From contig JAQWOT010000018.1 of NCBI GenBank assembly GCA_029245725.1, forward strand, positions 1 through 49,261: a stretch of 49,261 bases of DNA. The letters run 5' to 3'. Position numbers and translations under genes: made by a program. This DNA is from SAR324 cluster bacterium. GTDB lineage: Bacteria; SAR324; NAC60-12. Below are positions 560 through 5,518 of the stretch, in pieces. Numbering within the stretch: position 1 is the first letter of the stretch; each line of letters begins with the position of its first letter. A model generated the notes under the pieces. The model did not search any database, was not told the origin of the DNA, and worked only from the letters and a program-made list of their open reading frames with translations.

Positions 560-657
560 TTGGTGGAGCCCTACCAGATCCGAGCTTCCCTAAAGTGATG
601 TGCCTCAAGCAATGATATTAGCTGAACAAAGGAAACATCTGAGGGAATTGCCTAATT

Positions 658-831
658 TTACTCCAAAGGAGTCGCACAAAAACTACCGGAGGCTTGGGTG
701 CCTGAGCCAAAGGCCAGTGGAGGAGGTGCTCGGAAGGGGTCAATCGGGGCACTGAAGAGCAGGTCGAGGAACAGCAGACCAAACAGTCCAAGCAACAGCA
801 CACCGATGGTGTGGGAACGTTTGAGCGTCAT
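658..831 (-). CDS. Small membrane protein coupled to the YeeE-type transporter
   Basis: A 57-residue protein starting MTLKRSHTIG. Residues about 9-28 form one hydrophobic helix rich in Leu, Gly and Phe, followed by a Pro/Gly/Ser-rich tail with a single Cys near the C-terminus. It is not a known family to me. Its ATG (829-831) overlaps the TGA of the upstream transporter in an ATGA arrangement, which indicates translational coupling and makes it the last gene of the sulfur cassette. A longer frame reaching position 909 exists, but the overlap start is preferred because it gives the coupling and a clean membrane segment. The function may be an accessory subunit of the transporter; this is inference. 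Confidence 0.55.
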   Translation of the reverse strand: MTLKRSHTIGVLLLGLFGLLFLDLLFSAPIDPFRAPPPLAFGSGTQASGSFCATPLE

Positions 832-1970
832 CGACTTCCTCCGATCAGGTGGTTGCGCAGTCGTACTCCGATTATTGAGCCGGCAAAGGCCGCAGCAAAC
901 CAGACCCAACCATGCAGACTGCCGGTCGAGATGCCACTAAAGAAGGCTCCAACGTTACAGCCATAAGCCAGACGGGAGGCATAGCCCATCAGCAGGGCGG
1001 CTATTGCTCCAGCGATCCAAAGTCGAGTAGGCAGAGAAACCTGAGCGGCTAACGGCCCCTTCCAACGGGCAGCAATTCCAGCTCCCAACAATAAACCGAA
1101 GTCTGTCACCGAAGTGATGTCCAGCAGCAAGCTCTGAGTCAAGCGCTCAGCGTTGCTGGCAACGCTCCAGAAGGCAAAATTTGCCAACTCTATTCCTGAC
1201 CAATGTGCCAGCTTGGCACCCCATAGTCCTAGACCATAGGCCACCCCCCAGGGCTGCCCAGCCACCAACAAATTGAGTACAGCCAGCCCCGCGAGGAAGC
1301 CAGCAGCCAATAAGAATTTACGTGGCAGAATACGATCGTTCGAAGGCATCCATTGACGGAACCACCAGGCGAGTCCTGCAAGCAATCCCAGGGTCAGGAG
1401 GATCGCGCCGAGTGTTCCTAGCCAATCACTCAGTGCTATCGGCTCCAGTTGTCCCAAGGCATGCCACTCCGGCAGATGCAAAGTACCAAGAAAACTCCCA
1501 GCGATGAAAAAAGGTAAGGCCCAGAGACCCATCAAGTTGCCGCTACCAGCGTTGACCAGGGTGCCAGAACCACAGCCCAGCACGACCTGCATTGCAGCTC
1601 CAAAGACAAAGGCCCCGAAGATCATCGCGACCCCCACCGGAGCTGTGGCTCCTGTCAATTCACCCGCTGCGATGTCCAAGAGCAGCAGGCTTGGTAGAGT
1701 TGCCAGCCCAAGGGCTAGTAGTTGTGCCTGAATGCCTTGGGTGTTGCGCTCCAAGATCGCTCTTCGCCAAGGACCAGCAAAACCAAAACCCAGGCCTTCC
1801 AAGGTAATGCCAAAGCCTAGCCCGATAGCCAGCAGAATTCCTTGTCGTATTCCAGCATAGATGGCCAGCAGCAGAATCAGCAGGACCATCCCGAAACTCA
1901 GCAAGATACGAAGTCGCCTTTGTCCTGCAGGGTTCGCAGACCCATCAGTGGTTGCCGTTGTGGAACTCAT
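828..1970 (-). CDS. YeeE/YedE-family sulfur (thiosulfate-type) membrane transporter
   Basis: A 380-residue polytopic inner-membrane protein with about nine or ten hydrophobic segments after a short polar N-terminus. Two signature loops of the YeeE/YedE (Sulf_transp) family are visible: 'VLGCGSGTLVNAGSGN' in the first half and 'LAYGCNVGAFFSGISTGS' in the second. In the characterised member YeeE/TsuA, cysteines in such loops carry thiosulfate across the membrane. The gene lies 13 bp downstream of a periplasmic rhodanese on the same strand and overlaps the next small gene by 4 bp. That context fits import of thiosulfate or another sulfur compound. The length is close to the usual 350-400 residues. 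The exact substrate is inferred. Confidence 0.85.
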   Translation of the reverse strand: MSSTTATTDGSANPAGQRRLRILLSFGMVLLILLLAIYAGIRQGILLAIGLGFGITLEGLGFGFAGPWRRAILERNTQGIQAQLLALGLATLPSLLLLDIAAGELTGATAPVGVAMIFGAFVFGAAMQVVLGCGSGTLVNAGSGNLMGLWALPFFIAGSFLGTLHLPEWHALGQLEPIALSDWLGTLGAILLTLGLLAGLAWWFRQWMPSNDRILPRKFLLAAGFLAGLAVLNLLVAGQPWGVAYGLGLWGAKLAHWSGIELANFAFWSVASNAERLTQSLLLDITSVTDFGLLLGAGIAARWKGPLAAQVSLPTRLWIAGAIAALLMGYASRLAYGCNVGAFFSGISTGSLHGWVWFAAAFAGSIIGVRLRNHLIGGSR

Positions 1971-1983
1971 CAGAATCGTCAGC

Positions 1984-2961
1984 TCAGAAAGTGTTCGTAA
2001 ACCACTGCTTGGTATTGAGCCAAGCCCACTTCAAGCGCCCTGGTACGTTATCCATTGGCAGACCAGCAGCAGACCACTCAACCATTGACTCTGGGTAGAG
2101 CTTGACGCCTTCCTGCCCAACCACTTCACTCAGCACGAACCAGTTGGTTGCTGCCCAGTGCCCGGTATTGCAAAAGGAAACAGTCACTTGCGCTTGATTC
2201 AAGCCATGTTGCTGCACCAGTGTCTGCAGTTGTTCTGGAGCTTCCAACAGCGGTCCTCCGGAGCGAAACCATTGCTTGTTGTCAAAGTCATCGGCTCCAG
2301 AAATTGTTCCTGGCTTTGCTGCGGCACCGTGCCACTTTTCTCCAAGAAAGAACGCTTCTGGGCGAGCGTCGAGTAACTTGGTGTTCGAGCGATTGAGTTG
2401 CTGTTCCACATCATTGGTTGAAGCTAGCCAGTCAGCTTGAATCATAGCTGGATAACTGCTGGGACTCACTTTCGTTACCTCTTTGGAGATAGTTAATCCT
2501 GCCTGTTTCCACGCAGTGAATCCACCATCCACCACTGCCAATTGCTGAAGGCCGGCTGTCTTCAGGGTCCAGTAAACCCGAGCTGCTGCGCCGAAGTCAC
2601 TATAGGAATCGCCTTTGTGTAGGACTACCGTCGGGGTGTCTGCTGTCAGACCGAGGCCTTGAACGAGGGTAGTTAATTGGCTTTGAGAAAGGAATTTACC
2701 AGGATTCTCAGCAGGCCCCCGCCAATTTCCATAGGGTGAAGAGAGTGCACCAGGGATATGACCAGCATTGTAGGAACTATCTGGATCAGGTGCATTTGGC
2801 GGACGGATGTCAATGATGGTGACAGTTTCTGAGTAAGCTTGGAGTATTTGATTTAACTCATTGGCTGAGAGCAACGGCTTCCAGCCGGAGACCGAATTAG
2901 CAAAAGTGAAGCTACTAGCTAGAACCAGCAGTAGAGTAGAGAAAAGAGAGCGTATGTTCAT
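1984..2961 (-). CDS. Periplasmic two-domain rhodanese (sulfurtransferase), copy 1
   Basis: A 325-residue protein with an N-terminal signal peptide (MNIRSLFSTLLLVLASSFTFA). It has two rhodanese folds, an inactive-type N-terminal one (pattern 'DIRPPNAPDP...YNAGHIPGA') and a catalytic C-terminal one with the active-site loop C-N-T-G-H-W around Cys264. Rhodaneses move a sulfane sulfur from thiosulfate or a persulfide to a thiophilic acceptor through a Cys persulfide. The ATG at 2959-2961 was chosen over the upstream TTG at 2985 because it starts exactly at the signal peptide and gives the same 325-residue length as the paralogue at 3801-4778. It is followed after 13 bp by the YeeE-type transporter, so sulfur handed over in the periplasm may be imported. 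Confidence 0.88.
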   Translation of the reverse strand: MNIRSLFSTLLLVLASSFTFANSVSGWKPLLSANELNQILQAYSETVTIIDIRPPNAPDPDSSYNAGHIPGALSSPYGNWRGPAENPGKFLSQSQLTTLVQGLGLTADTPTVVLHKGDSYSDFGAAARVYWTLKTAGLQQLAVVDGGFTAWKQAGLTISKEVTKVSPSSYPAMIQADWLASTNDVEQQLNRSNTKLLDARPEAFFLGEKWHGAAAKPGTISGADDFDNKQWFRSGGPLLEAPEQLQTLVQQHGLNQAQVTVSFCNTGHWAATNWFVLSEVVGQEGVKLYPESMVEWSAAGLPMDNVPGRLKWAWLNTKQWFTNTF

Positions 2962-3039
2962 GTTGGTTCTCAGTGAAAAAATCAAAAATAGACCAATTGA
3001 TTATAGAAAAATTATGCATGGTTTGTAGGTAGATAGCCA

Positions 3040-3651
3040 TCAGCCTCCAAGACCTCTTTGAGAAGCCTGCTGAGACTGAATTTCCCTGACGCATTGATAG
3101 AGATTTTCTAACTTGGAGTCATGAATTTGAGCTTTGTGAAGGTACTGAATCGTTTGCTTTAGGTACTCAACACATGGACCCCGTTTTCCTTTGGCTTCCA
3201 GAATTCGTTTTCCTTTGGCTTCCACCTGCATTGTGGGGCAGACGTATTTGGGATGATCCAGTCTGACGACGAAGGCAATCGCTTCCAAGCTCCCTATCGC
3301 TGATTCAACACGAACCCATTGTGGTTCATAGGCCTCCGTGATCATCTCCCTTTCCCAAATTTGGACCAGTTGGGTGTCCTTCAACTCCGGAGGAATCTGC
3401 AATGCCCGACCAATACAGGACCTACCTGGTTCAAGTCCGAGGACTAATCCTGGAAATTCCTTGGTTCCTCGATGCTCCGTGCTCCAAAGACAAAAACTCC
3501 GATGGAATCCTTGAATTGTAGCCAGAATTGATTGATCAAAGAAAATTTCTGGATTCCACATCAAGGACCCATAGGCAAAAATCCAGATTTCCTGGTCAGG
3601 AGGTCGTTGATTCAGAATGCTTTGGAGGGAGAAATTCACTGGAGTCACCAC
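3040..3651 (-). CDS. chaC: ChaC-like gamma-glutamylcyclotransferase
   Basis: A 203-residue ChaC-family protein. The family cleaves the gamma-glutamyl bond of glutathione, releasing 5-oxoproline and Cys-Gly in the cytoplasm. The substrate-binding motif YGSLMWNP is at about residues 27-34, and the catalytic-glutamate region 'WEREM' is present, as in E. coli ChaC. Near the C-terminus the family's 'GPCxEYL' motif is preceded by an in-frame duplication (EAKGKRIL/EAKGKRG) caused by a 24-bp repeat. The start is GTG at 3649-3651; no upstream ATG is in frame. Lying between two rhodanese genes on the same strand, it points to recovery of cysteine sulfur from glutathione as part of the cassette. Confidence 0.85.
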   Translation of the reverse strand: MVTPVNFSLQSILNQRPPDQEIWIFAYGSLMWNPEIFFDQSILATIQGFHRSFCLWSTEHRGTKEFPGLVLGLEPGRSCIGRALQIPPELKDTQLVQIWEREMITEAYEPQWVRVESAIGSLEAIAFVVRLDHPKYVCPTMQVEAKGKRILEAKGKRGPCVEYLKQTIQYLHKAQIHDSKLENLYQCVREIQSQQASQRGLGG

Positions 3652-3800: not shown

Positions 3801-4778
3801 TCAGTTGAACTTGGATACGAGCCATTGCTTGGTAGACAACCAGGCCCACTCCAGGCGATTGGGAACATTATCCATTGGCAGATTGGCGGTGGACCATTCA
3901 ACTAATGATTCGGGATATAGTTTAACATTCTGCTTACCAGCGATTTCACTGAGCACAAACCAGTTGGTAGCAGCCCAGTGTCCTGTATTGCAGAAGGAAA
4001 CAGTGATTTCAGCCTGGCCGAGCTTATTCTCCTGCACCAGATTCTGCAGTCGTTCCGGGGATTCGAGCAAGAGACCACCGGAGTGAAACCAGCGCTCGTT
4101 ATCAAAAGCCACTGCTCCAGCGATGGTTCCAGGTTTGCTGGCGGCTGGATGCCAACTCAGGCCTTCGAAAAAGGAGTCGGGTCGGGCATCCAGTACTTGG
4201 ACTCCAGGCTTGTTGAGGTAGGCTTCGACTTCAGCTGTCTGTGCCAGCCAGTGAGGTTGGATTTGGGCAGGAAAGTCACTTGGCAGTGAAGTTTCCAACT
4301 CCATCGAGATCGGTAGGCCCGCCTGTTTCCAGGCCTGGAAACCACCATTGAGGATTGCCAGGTTGGCCAATCCAGCGGTCTTGAGAGACCAGTAGACACG
4401 AGCTGCTGCGCCAAAGTCACTGTAGGAATCCCCACGGTGTACTACGACGACAGGGGTATCAACATCCGCCCCAAGTGCCTGGACGAGCCAGGTCAGCTTA
4501 TCCTGGGTGATGAACTTGCCAGGATTGTCGGGTTGCCCGCGCCAAGTCGCATAGGGAGAAGAGGTCGCACCGGGGATGTGCCCAGCATTGTAGGAGGCGT
4601 CCGGTTCCTTGGCATCTAAGGCCCGGATGTCAACGACAGTTGCAGCAAAGGGATCTTCTTCGAGAAGTTCATGCAACTCGTCTACGGAGAGGAGAGGCTT
4701 CCAGTGGGAAAGTTCACTGGCAAAAGTCACATTGGCAATCAAGGTGAGCAGTCCGATGAGTAAAAGATGCAGTTTCAT
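3801..4778 (-). CDS. Periplasmic two-domain rhodanese (sulfurtransferase), copy 2
   Basis: A 325-residue paralogue of the protein at 1984-2961, with the same architecture: signal peptide (MKLHLLLIGLLTLIANVTFA), N-terminal rhodanese domain with 'YNAGHIPGA', and C-terminal catalytic domain with C-N-T-G-H-W around Cys263. Long blocks are identical between the copies (for example FCNTGHWAATNWFVLSE), so this is a tandem duplication with chaC between the copies. The ATG (4776-4778) has a strong Shine-Dalgarno sequence (AGGAGA), which lies in the 3' arm of a small hairpin. This is the first gene of the sulfur cassette, and its long leader carries the poly-cysteine reading frames described at 4779-5343. 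Confidence 0.88.
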   Translation of the reverse strand: MKLHLLLIGLLTLIANVTFASELSHWKPLLSVDELHELLEEDPFAATVVDIRALDAKEPDASYNAGHIPGATSSPYATWRGQPDNPGKFITQDKLTWLVQALGADVDTPVVVVHRGDSYSDFGAAARVYWSLKTAGLANLAILNGGFQAWKQAGLPISMELETSLPSDFPAQIQPHWLAQTAEVEAYLNKPGVQVLDARPDSFFEGLSWHPAASKPGTIAGAVAFDNERWFHSGGLLLESPERLQNLVQENKLGQAEITVSFCNTGHWAATNWFVLSEIAGKQNVKLYPESLVEWSTANLPMDNVPNRLEWAWLSTKQWLVSKFN

Positions 4779-4834
4779 CAGTTTTCTCCTGGAGAGAAGT
4801 TGGCAAAGCAGGGCAAAAAGATGGCCCAGAACAT
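4778..4834 (-). CDS. Candidate third short leader frame, overlapping the rhodanese start
   Basis: An 18-codon frame starting MFWAIFLP with one Cys and ending ...SPGEN. Its TGA (4778-4780) overlaps the ATG of the rhodanese gene as TGATG, a typical coupling arrangement. It has no strong ribosome-binding site and only one Cys, so it may be chance. It is listed because poly-Cys leader frames in actinobacteria are translationally coupled to the gene they control, and this frame could provide such coupling. Confidence 0.22.
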   Translation of the reverse strand: MFWAIFLPCFANFSPGEN

Positions 4835-5007
4835 TAGCAAATGTGGGGAAGCTTTCCCCAGTGGGGAACGTTCTCGGTCAACGGAAACAACAGGCGAGGA
4901 GCGTTTTGGAGAGGAACCTGCGGGAGGCTCTAGAGCAAACGCACTCGCGAAAAATTCAGTGAGTGATCAGAATCGGGAAACGAATCAGGAATGCGTGAAC
5001 AGGGTGT

Positions 5008-5124
5008 TCAGCAACAGCAGGTAGGGCAGCAACAGCAGGGAGTGACAGAGGCAACAACGGCAGCAGTCTGGGAAAGTCTCGAACGCCTGGAGTGGGAAAG
5101 CGGTATATGGAGTAGAGAGTTCAT
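5008..5124 (-). CDS. Short leader frame ending in a seven-cysteine tail (uORF2)
   Basis: A 38-residue frame from ATG 5122-5124 to TGA 5008-5010. The last nine residues are CCCC-P-T-CCC, directly followed by the stop. Cys codons mix TGC and TGT. The first 29 residues are Ser/Arg/Leu-rich with no recognisable fold. The stop codon is the first three bases of the perfect hairpin TGAACA-ccc-TGTTCA. The ribosome-binding site is weak (AGAAAG directly before ATG). Poly-Cys C-termini on tiny frames upstream of sulfur genes are known from actinobacterial cysteine attenuation; this would be the same principle in an unrelated sequence. The alternative is a low-complexity CAR/YTG repeat that gives poly-Cys by chance. 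Confidence 0.45.
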   Translation of the reverse strand: MNSLLHIPLSHSRRSRLSQTAAVVASVTPCCCCPTCCC

Positions 5125-5208
5125 CTTTCTATCTGATTTGAAAAAGTTTTTGGAGAAATTGGCGCTGGGGCCAAGGATGCGGCTAGGCCGCTGTGAAGAG
5201 GACCTGTA

Positions 5209-5280
5209 TCAACAACAGGTCAAACGACAACAACAATCGGCCGGGGTACCGAATCGAATGTCTTTGCATGAGAAAGGCAT
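5209..5280 (-). CDS. Short leader frame ending in clustered cysteines (uORF1)
   Basis: A 23-residue frame from ATG 5278-5280 to TGA 5209-5211, ending D-CCC-RLT-CC directly before the stop, with one more Cys at residue 5. A longer version starting at GTG 5343 in the same frame would have 44 residues. The Cys-codon stretch (5226-5237 on the plus strand) is complementary over 12 bases, with one G-U pair, to the bases that include its own ATG, so translation and folding should compete. The stop lies in the loop of the GACCTG/CAGGTC hairpin. Its tail echoes that of uORF2 (CCCC-P-T-CCC), which suggests either duplication or parallel selection for cysteine codons. Confidence 0.42.
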   Translation of the reverse strand: MPFSCKDIRFGTPADCCCRLTCC

Positions 5281-5349
5281 TGCTGTTGTCCAAGAAGAAG
5301 GAATTTTAGAAAAAGAAATGTGATCATCTCGGAGGCCGAGCACAAAGGC

Positions 5350-5378
5350 AAGTATTTTTTGCAGGTGCTAGAATACTT
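5350..5378. promoter_or_regulatory. Inverted repeat AAGTATT-n15-AATACTT between divergent genes
   Basis: Perfect 7-bp arms at 5350-5356 and 5372-5378 lie upstream of the sulfur leader and of the divergent aldo/keto reductase. A second small palindrome, CTCGG-agg-CCGAG, is at 5328-5340. The position suits an operator for a dimeric regulator, but arms this short can arise by chance and no regulator gene is adjacent. No convincing -35/-10 pair was found on either strand of this spacer. Confidence 0.25.
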
Positions 5379-5518
5379 AGGGCAATGTGTCCTCGGTTAT
5401 CGGCTTTTTTCACCAATCTTTCTCAGGTGTTGAGAATGGTTTGATCTTCTACTGACTATTGTCGAAGATTAGAAGAAATCTGATCTTTCTTCTCAACCAC
5501 ACATGCTTTGAAGGACAC

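Follow-up and report, generated by a model that had tools for sequence, protein, structure and literature searches.

Two short frames in tandem, each ending in a cluster of cysteine codons, lie ahead of a set of sulfur genes in the window (the whole stretch of DNA analysed, 49,261 nt). The pair is real and conserved, is probably functional and, judging from its sequence, most likely acts as a cysteine-sensing attenuator. The best reading, which we regard as reasonably probable, is that this attenuator works by ribosome stalling, through masking of a ribosome-binding site, through Rho, or through both. We infer the transcription of the leader, the translation of the frames, the stalling, the direction of the response and the controlled step (masking, Rho or both).

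The poly-cysteine frames and the downstream sulfur genes

sORF1 (5280-5209, minus strand) has 23 codons and encodes MPFSCKDIRFGTPADCCCRLTCC, with the tail DCCCRLTCC before a TGA stop. sORF2 (5124-5008, minus strand) has 38 codons and encodes MNSLLHIPLSHSRRSRLSQTAAVVASVTPCCCCPTCCC, with the tail CCCCPTCCC, also before TGA. Both match exactly the two frames described in the first-pass annotation, and they are placed within the 740-nt gap between a divergent aldo/keto reductase gene (start 5519, plus strand) and the gene for rhodanese 1 (start 4778, minus strand). Among the frames of 8-60 codons in the window, these are the only two with at least four Cys within the last 10 residues. The 4.4-Mb genome holds only four matches to the pattern TGYTGYTGY-N(3-18)-TGYTGYTGA, two of which are the sORF tails, about 200 nt apart. 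Both frames carry a feature of the class of cysteine attenuators, clustered Cys codons within the leader of sulfur/cysteine genes. Neither sORF1 nor sORF2 is preceded by a good Shine-Dalgarno site; nor is the site better than -3 kcal/mol in 15 of the 24 other window genes checked, for which starts were assigned mechanically. A GTG-started frame near the 3' end of the YeeE gene (618-803, minus strand) begins with MCCCLDCLVCCSSTCSS and has N-terminal Cys, and is probably a chance frame.

Rhodanese 1 (3801-4778, minus strand) is a two-domain PF00581 sulfurtransferase with an N-terminal signal-like stretch. It is followed by a ChaC protein of the gamma-glutamylcyclotransferase family (3040-3651, minus strand, PF04752), by rhodanese 2 (1984-2985, minus strand, PF00581), which is 63% identical to rhodanese 1, and by a YeeE-type sulfur transporter (828-1970, minus strand, PF04143). 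The Pfam matches and the shared strand bear out the earlier description of a rhodanese/chaC/YeeE cassette downstream of the frames. The strand, spacing and content of the four genes suggest that they form one operon. Their role is in sulfur and cysteine economy, and TsuA/YeeE is known to import thiosulfate (PMC11582611).

The same genome has a second YeeE copy (G000:C33:2218-3135, locus L088), 93% identical to the one in the window, with no rhodanese or ChaC gene within the fetched flanks. In one copy from a related genome bin (locus L018, G002:C343) YeeE directly follows rhodanese 1, with ChaC and rhodanese 2 missing, and this bin has a second leader and rhodanese start on another contig (locus L021). 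This may reflect mixed strains within the bin or a true rearrangement. Between the aldo/keto reductase gene and sORF1 lies a near-palindrome, TTCTCA-ACACC-TGAGAA (5420-5436, minus strand), that is kept in the relatives covering it, with one base changed in L019 and in genome G003. From its sequence it could be a regulator site for the aldo/keto reductase or for the gene on the sORF1 side.

Retention of the frames and their cysteine codons in the genus

The leader is present in all six genomes of the genus in seven copies, with two in one genome. The other copies are the loci L017-L021 and L099; L018 starts within sORF1, so that sORF1 is covered by six leaders and sORF2 by all seven. The relatives are few and close, with a mean column identity of about 88%. 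Every copy that covers a sORF keeps its ATG and its stop, with an uninterrupted frame between them that has five or more Cys codons. The sORF1 peptides end in DCCCRLTCC, DCYCCCRLTCC, DCCCCCRLTCC (two copies), DCHCCCRLTCC and DCCCCCLTCC, and those of sORF2 in CCCCPTCCC (three), CCCCPAYCC (two), CCCFPACCR and YCCHPACCC. Individual Cys codons are replaceable, since L020 ends in CCR, L019 and L021 have a Tyr, and the run of G003 has both Tyr and His. All four indels within the sORFs (6, 3, 9 and 3 nt) are multiples of three. In G003 the spacer that separates the sORFs carries a 1-nt indel, and the stretch from sORF2 to the rhodanese gene is without indels. The stop of sORF1 is TAA in G003 and TGA in every other leader.

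The sORF2 peptide outside the Cys tail varies among the relatives. The first-pass annotation had proposed an alignment of homologous leaders as a check, with Cys codons and the adjacent stop kept while the flanks drift. This pattern holds for both frames, their ATG and stop, most of the Cys tails and the drift of sORF2 in all six genomes, but not for every single Cys codon. Retention of the frames and Cys tails while the rest of sORF2 drifts supports a cysteine-codon sensor, and by analogy this drift resembles that of attenuator leader peptides. A peptide that is not conserved as a whole is predicted by a leader peptide and is also compatible with an untranslated RNA. Variable sites are evenly distributed over the codon positions, and the sORF alignment of the genus leaders has no synonymous-site excess, so that coding is backed only by the retention of the frames and of Cys.

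sORF2 is the sole listed leader frame on either strand with its start and stop kept in all seven copies, the list holding, for each stop codon, the longest ATG, GTG or TTG frame of at least 15 codons. sORF1 does not appear in this list, because longer GTG/TTG extensions end at its stop. A simple neutral simulation was given the observed number of substitutions; in it, sORF2 is intact in all seven copies with p=0.012 and has a Cys count as high as observed with p=0.014. The values for sORF1 (0.15 for an intact frame and 0.28 for the Cys count) are not significant because there are few substitutions. It was also cautioned earlier that the repeat allows several reading frames. The relatives answer this concern: the opposite-strand poly-Gln frame (4991-5323, plus strand) is retained in no relative covering its span. 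A plus-strand gene over the same DNA was rejected, as this frame is broken in relatives and lacks a Pfam match.

These data also bear on two other explanations. The leader may have no regulatory role and be a conserved non-coding region of close relatives, in which the short frames persist by descent. The closeness of the relatives and the loss of some Cys codons would suit this, but two rare Cys-tail frames in tandem precede a sulfur operon, the indels in the frames are all in-frame, sORF2 is uniquely kept among the longest leader frames, and some parts of the leader are less variable than the rhodanese coding start, making this explanation quite improbable.

Cys-rich peptides bind metals and sulfane sulfur. 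It could be that the nascent peptides respond to a metal, to sulfane sulfur or to thiol stress, rather than to the charging of Cys-tRNA, and control the same operon through stalling or its relief. Rhodaneses and YeeE handle reactive sulfur, and a copper-responsive uORF has been published (PMC9426467). The Cys run, however, is at the extreme C-terminus and would still be in the ribosome tunnel at termination; neither is the spacing of the Cys residues fixed nor a CXXC-type motif kept. We consider such a sensor quite improbable.

Outside the genus, the 46 other genomes of the phylum (52 in the collection) yielded no convincing copy of the leader. An RNA model of the sORF1 region, run against the 52 phylum genomes, gave strong matches in the six genus members only, and we rejected those in G008 (E 0.007) and G012 (E 0.08). 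The scan of the genome collection returned the same genus and distant rhodaneses. No further sORF with a poly-Cys tail ahead of sulfur genes was accepted among the relatives: the pattern is rare, and the inspected loci, all of them returned by the searches, resemble frames that overlap unrelated coding genes or lie antisense to them. No clustered terminal Cys run was found around the YeeE relatives.

Predicted structure of the leader and the step under control

A weak candidate promoter (5323-5351, minus strand), read by eye from the alignment, consists of TTGCCT (5351-5346), a 17-nt spacer and GATGAT (5328-5323), and lies about 45 nt upstream of sORF1. It has 8 of 12 consensus matches, which is under the threshold of the promoter scan, and the scan returned none. 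The block ACTTGCYTTTRTRCTC at this site is kept in six leaders.

The strand GACAACAGCA (5281-5290, minus strand), directly before the ATG of sORF1, is predicted to pair with Cys codons of sORF1 (5235-5226). By inspection this pairing survives the changes in G003 through G-U pairs; a strand of this type is pairable with any UGYUGY run. Six candidate hairpins follow on the minus strand. The first, GACCUGU/ACAGGUC (5201-5221), is predicted over the Cys tail and stop codon of sORF1, and two lie in the spacer between the sORFs: GCGGC/GCCGC (5179-5191), kept in all seven leaders with one G-U variant, and UUGGC/GCCAA (5159-5174), in which the inner four pairs are invariant, the outer pair is not kept and the loop is variable. 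The 5' arm of the hairpin UGAACA/UGUUCA (4996-5010) includes the sORF2 stop codon; the stem of this hairpin is kept in seven of seven, with one G-U variant and a variable loop. A longer stem, GCGAG.GCGUUU/AAACGC..CUCGC (4894-4948), lies between sORF2 and the rhodanese gene with 97% of cells paired and some one-sided changes. The last, UUCUCU/GGAGAA (4784-4798), contains the rhodanese Shine-Dalgarno site, and its six pairs are invariant in the seven leaders.

Over the candidate hairpins, 97% of cells pair, compared with 37-50% in slid controls, which suggests conserved leader hairpins; no candidate hairpin has a compensatory two-sided change across the seven leaders. The whole leader and the sORF1 part are predicted to fold more stably than shuffled sequences (z -2.2 to -3.0), and the 3' parts of the leader are not (z -1.3 and -0.8). 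No Rfam match at gathering score was found in the window. A long-range helix from RNAalifold (UUUCUCC/GGAGAAA), in which the spacer would pair with the rhodanese Shine-Dalgarno site, was dropped, being mismatched in G003 by inspection. In all seven leaders an upstream RGGGAA can pair with the UUCUCU arm of the Shine-Dalgarno hairpin (alignment columns 465-470, 526-531 and 535-540). It is possible that RGGGAA is an anti-sequestor, but 28 helices of at least 6 bp pass the same filter and this pairing may be due to chance.

The most conserved part of the leader is the sORF1 tail with the hairpins following it, where 5-12% of the columns are variable in 60-nt windows. Elsewhere in the leader 15-50% of the columns are variable, and 32-45% in the first rhodanese codons. 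This conservation peak is at the nucleotide level and could point to an untranslated structured regulatory RNA, in which UGYUGY repeats pair with ACAACAGCA and CAGCGGC strands and the Cys runs are a by-product of these repeats. The UGYUGY runs do pair with conserved strands in seven of seven leaders, the Shine-Dalgarno sites of the sORFs are weak, and there is no synonymous-site signal. An RNA of this kind is nevertheless unlikely, since the four frame indels preserve the frame, ATG and stop are kept, with TGA replaced by TAA, and sORF2 is much changed yet free of stops.

For the attenuator reading, the controlled step is narrowed by what the leader contains. The terminator scan found no intrinsic terminator between sORF2 and the rhodanese gene; the sole terminator-like site (5252-5237) is within sORF1 and is no more than chance expectation. 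The leader is C-rich and G-poor, with abundant YC dimers and a C/G ratio of 1.65, which is the 99th percentile when 500-nt windows of both strands are compared, and this make-up is that of Rho-loading sites (PMC12121999). The 229-nt C-rich stretch from sORF2 to the rhodanese gene (4779-5007, minus strand), which has the same length in all seven copies, is a candidate Rho-loading region; its C/G ratio is 1.68 in the window and 1.40-1.68 across the seven copies. Rho is encoded in the genome, and the strong rhodanese Shine-Dalgarno site lies within an invariant predicted hairpin. The lack of a terminator, the C-rich leader, the presence of Rho and the Shine-Dalgarno hairpin together favour masking of the ribosome site and/or Rho as the controlled step. 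Given the 229 nt between sORF2 and the rhodanese gene, a stall must act via an intermediate structure or Rho. This distance leaves the coupling of stalling to output unexplained, which counts against an attenuator.

Proposed mechanism and relation to known attenuators

In the proposed mechanism, a leader of about 500 nt would carry two short translated frames in tandem, with Cys codons clustered at each stop. When charged Cys-tRNA is plentiful, ribosomes would pass through the tails and leave; in the fold that the leader then takes, the rhodanese ribosome-binding site would be held in its hairpin and the C-rich leader would be open to Rho, keeping the operon off. When charged Cys-tRNA is scarce, ribosomes stalled in the tails would shield the RNA and open the hairpins that span the tails and stop codons, allowing the two rhodaneses, ChaC and YeeE to be synthesized. 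These products would then bring reduced sulfur into the cell and regain cysteine from glutathione. A more elaborate possibility, which we regard as rather improbable, is a two-stage sensor in which two poly-Cys peptides in series, with the start region of the first masked by its own Cys codons, together control how Rho and ribosomes reach the leader and the ribosome-binding site of a sulfur-import operon, and which evolved independently of the actinobacterial and rhodobacterial attenuators.

For actinobacterial cys and cbs operons, leader peptides with Cys runs near the stop have been predicted; these leaders, too, lack terminators, and Rho has been proposed (PMC1262725). The mycobacterial polycysteine leaderless sORFs (Canestrari et al. 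2020) are cited as cysteine-responsive attenuators (PMC13236596, PMC9031893). The mycobacterial and actinobacterial leaders share with this one the short frames, the Cys runs near the stop, the position in a sulfur/cysteine gene leader and the lack of an evident terminator. They differ in that this leader belongs to another phylum, has a tandem pair, precedes a rhodanese/ChaC/YeeE operon and is known from sequence alone. The mycobacterial sORFs are leaderless, whereas here there is no sign of leaderless frames: by inspection, no -10-like box lies at leaderless distance before the ATG of sORF1 or sORF2, and the candidate promoter is well upstream.

A Gram-negative precedent is uORFC-8-2, a motif from Rhodobacterales in which a Cys-codon uORF precedes cysS (PMC8632094). 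Its uORF has tandem Cys codons inside a stem, and ribosome-mediated attenuation is predicted. In that motif there are two Cys codons (about codons 14 and 15), a U-run terminator and cysS downstream (PMC8632094), where this leader has a pair of frames with long Cys tails, lacks a terminator and has rhodanese as its first gene. The first-pass annotation had suggested an independent or unrecorded attenuator in a Gram-negative, doubled in tandem. The tandem pair stands, and the Rhodobacterales motif is an earlier Gram-negative case (PMC8632094); what is new here is that the poly-Cys frames come as a tandem pair, that they precede a sulfur-import operon and that they occur in this lineage. The toiL uORF of the E. 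coli topAI operon is similar in being a leader uORF with a masked first-gene ribosome-binding site and Rho-loading features (PMC12121999). It senses ribosome-stalling antibiotics and not an amino acid, and its mechanism has been shown experimentally (PMC12121999), while the one described here is predicted from sequence.

Cys-codon attenuators have been documented mainly in Actinobacteria, and once before cysS in Rhodobacterales. If the attenuator reading is true, it would suggest several origins of cysteine sensing through ribosome stalling, and in this lineage sulfur import and glutathione breakdown would be tied to the cysteine supply.
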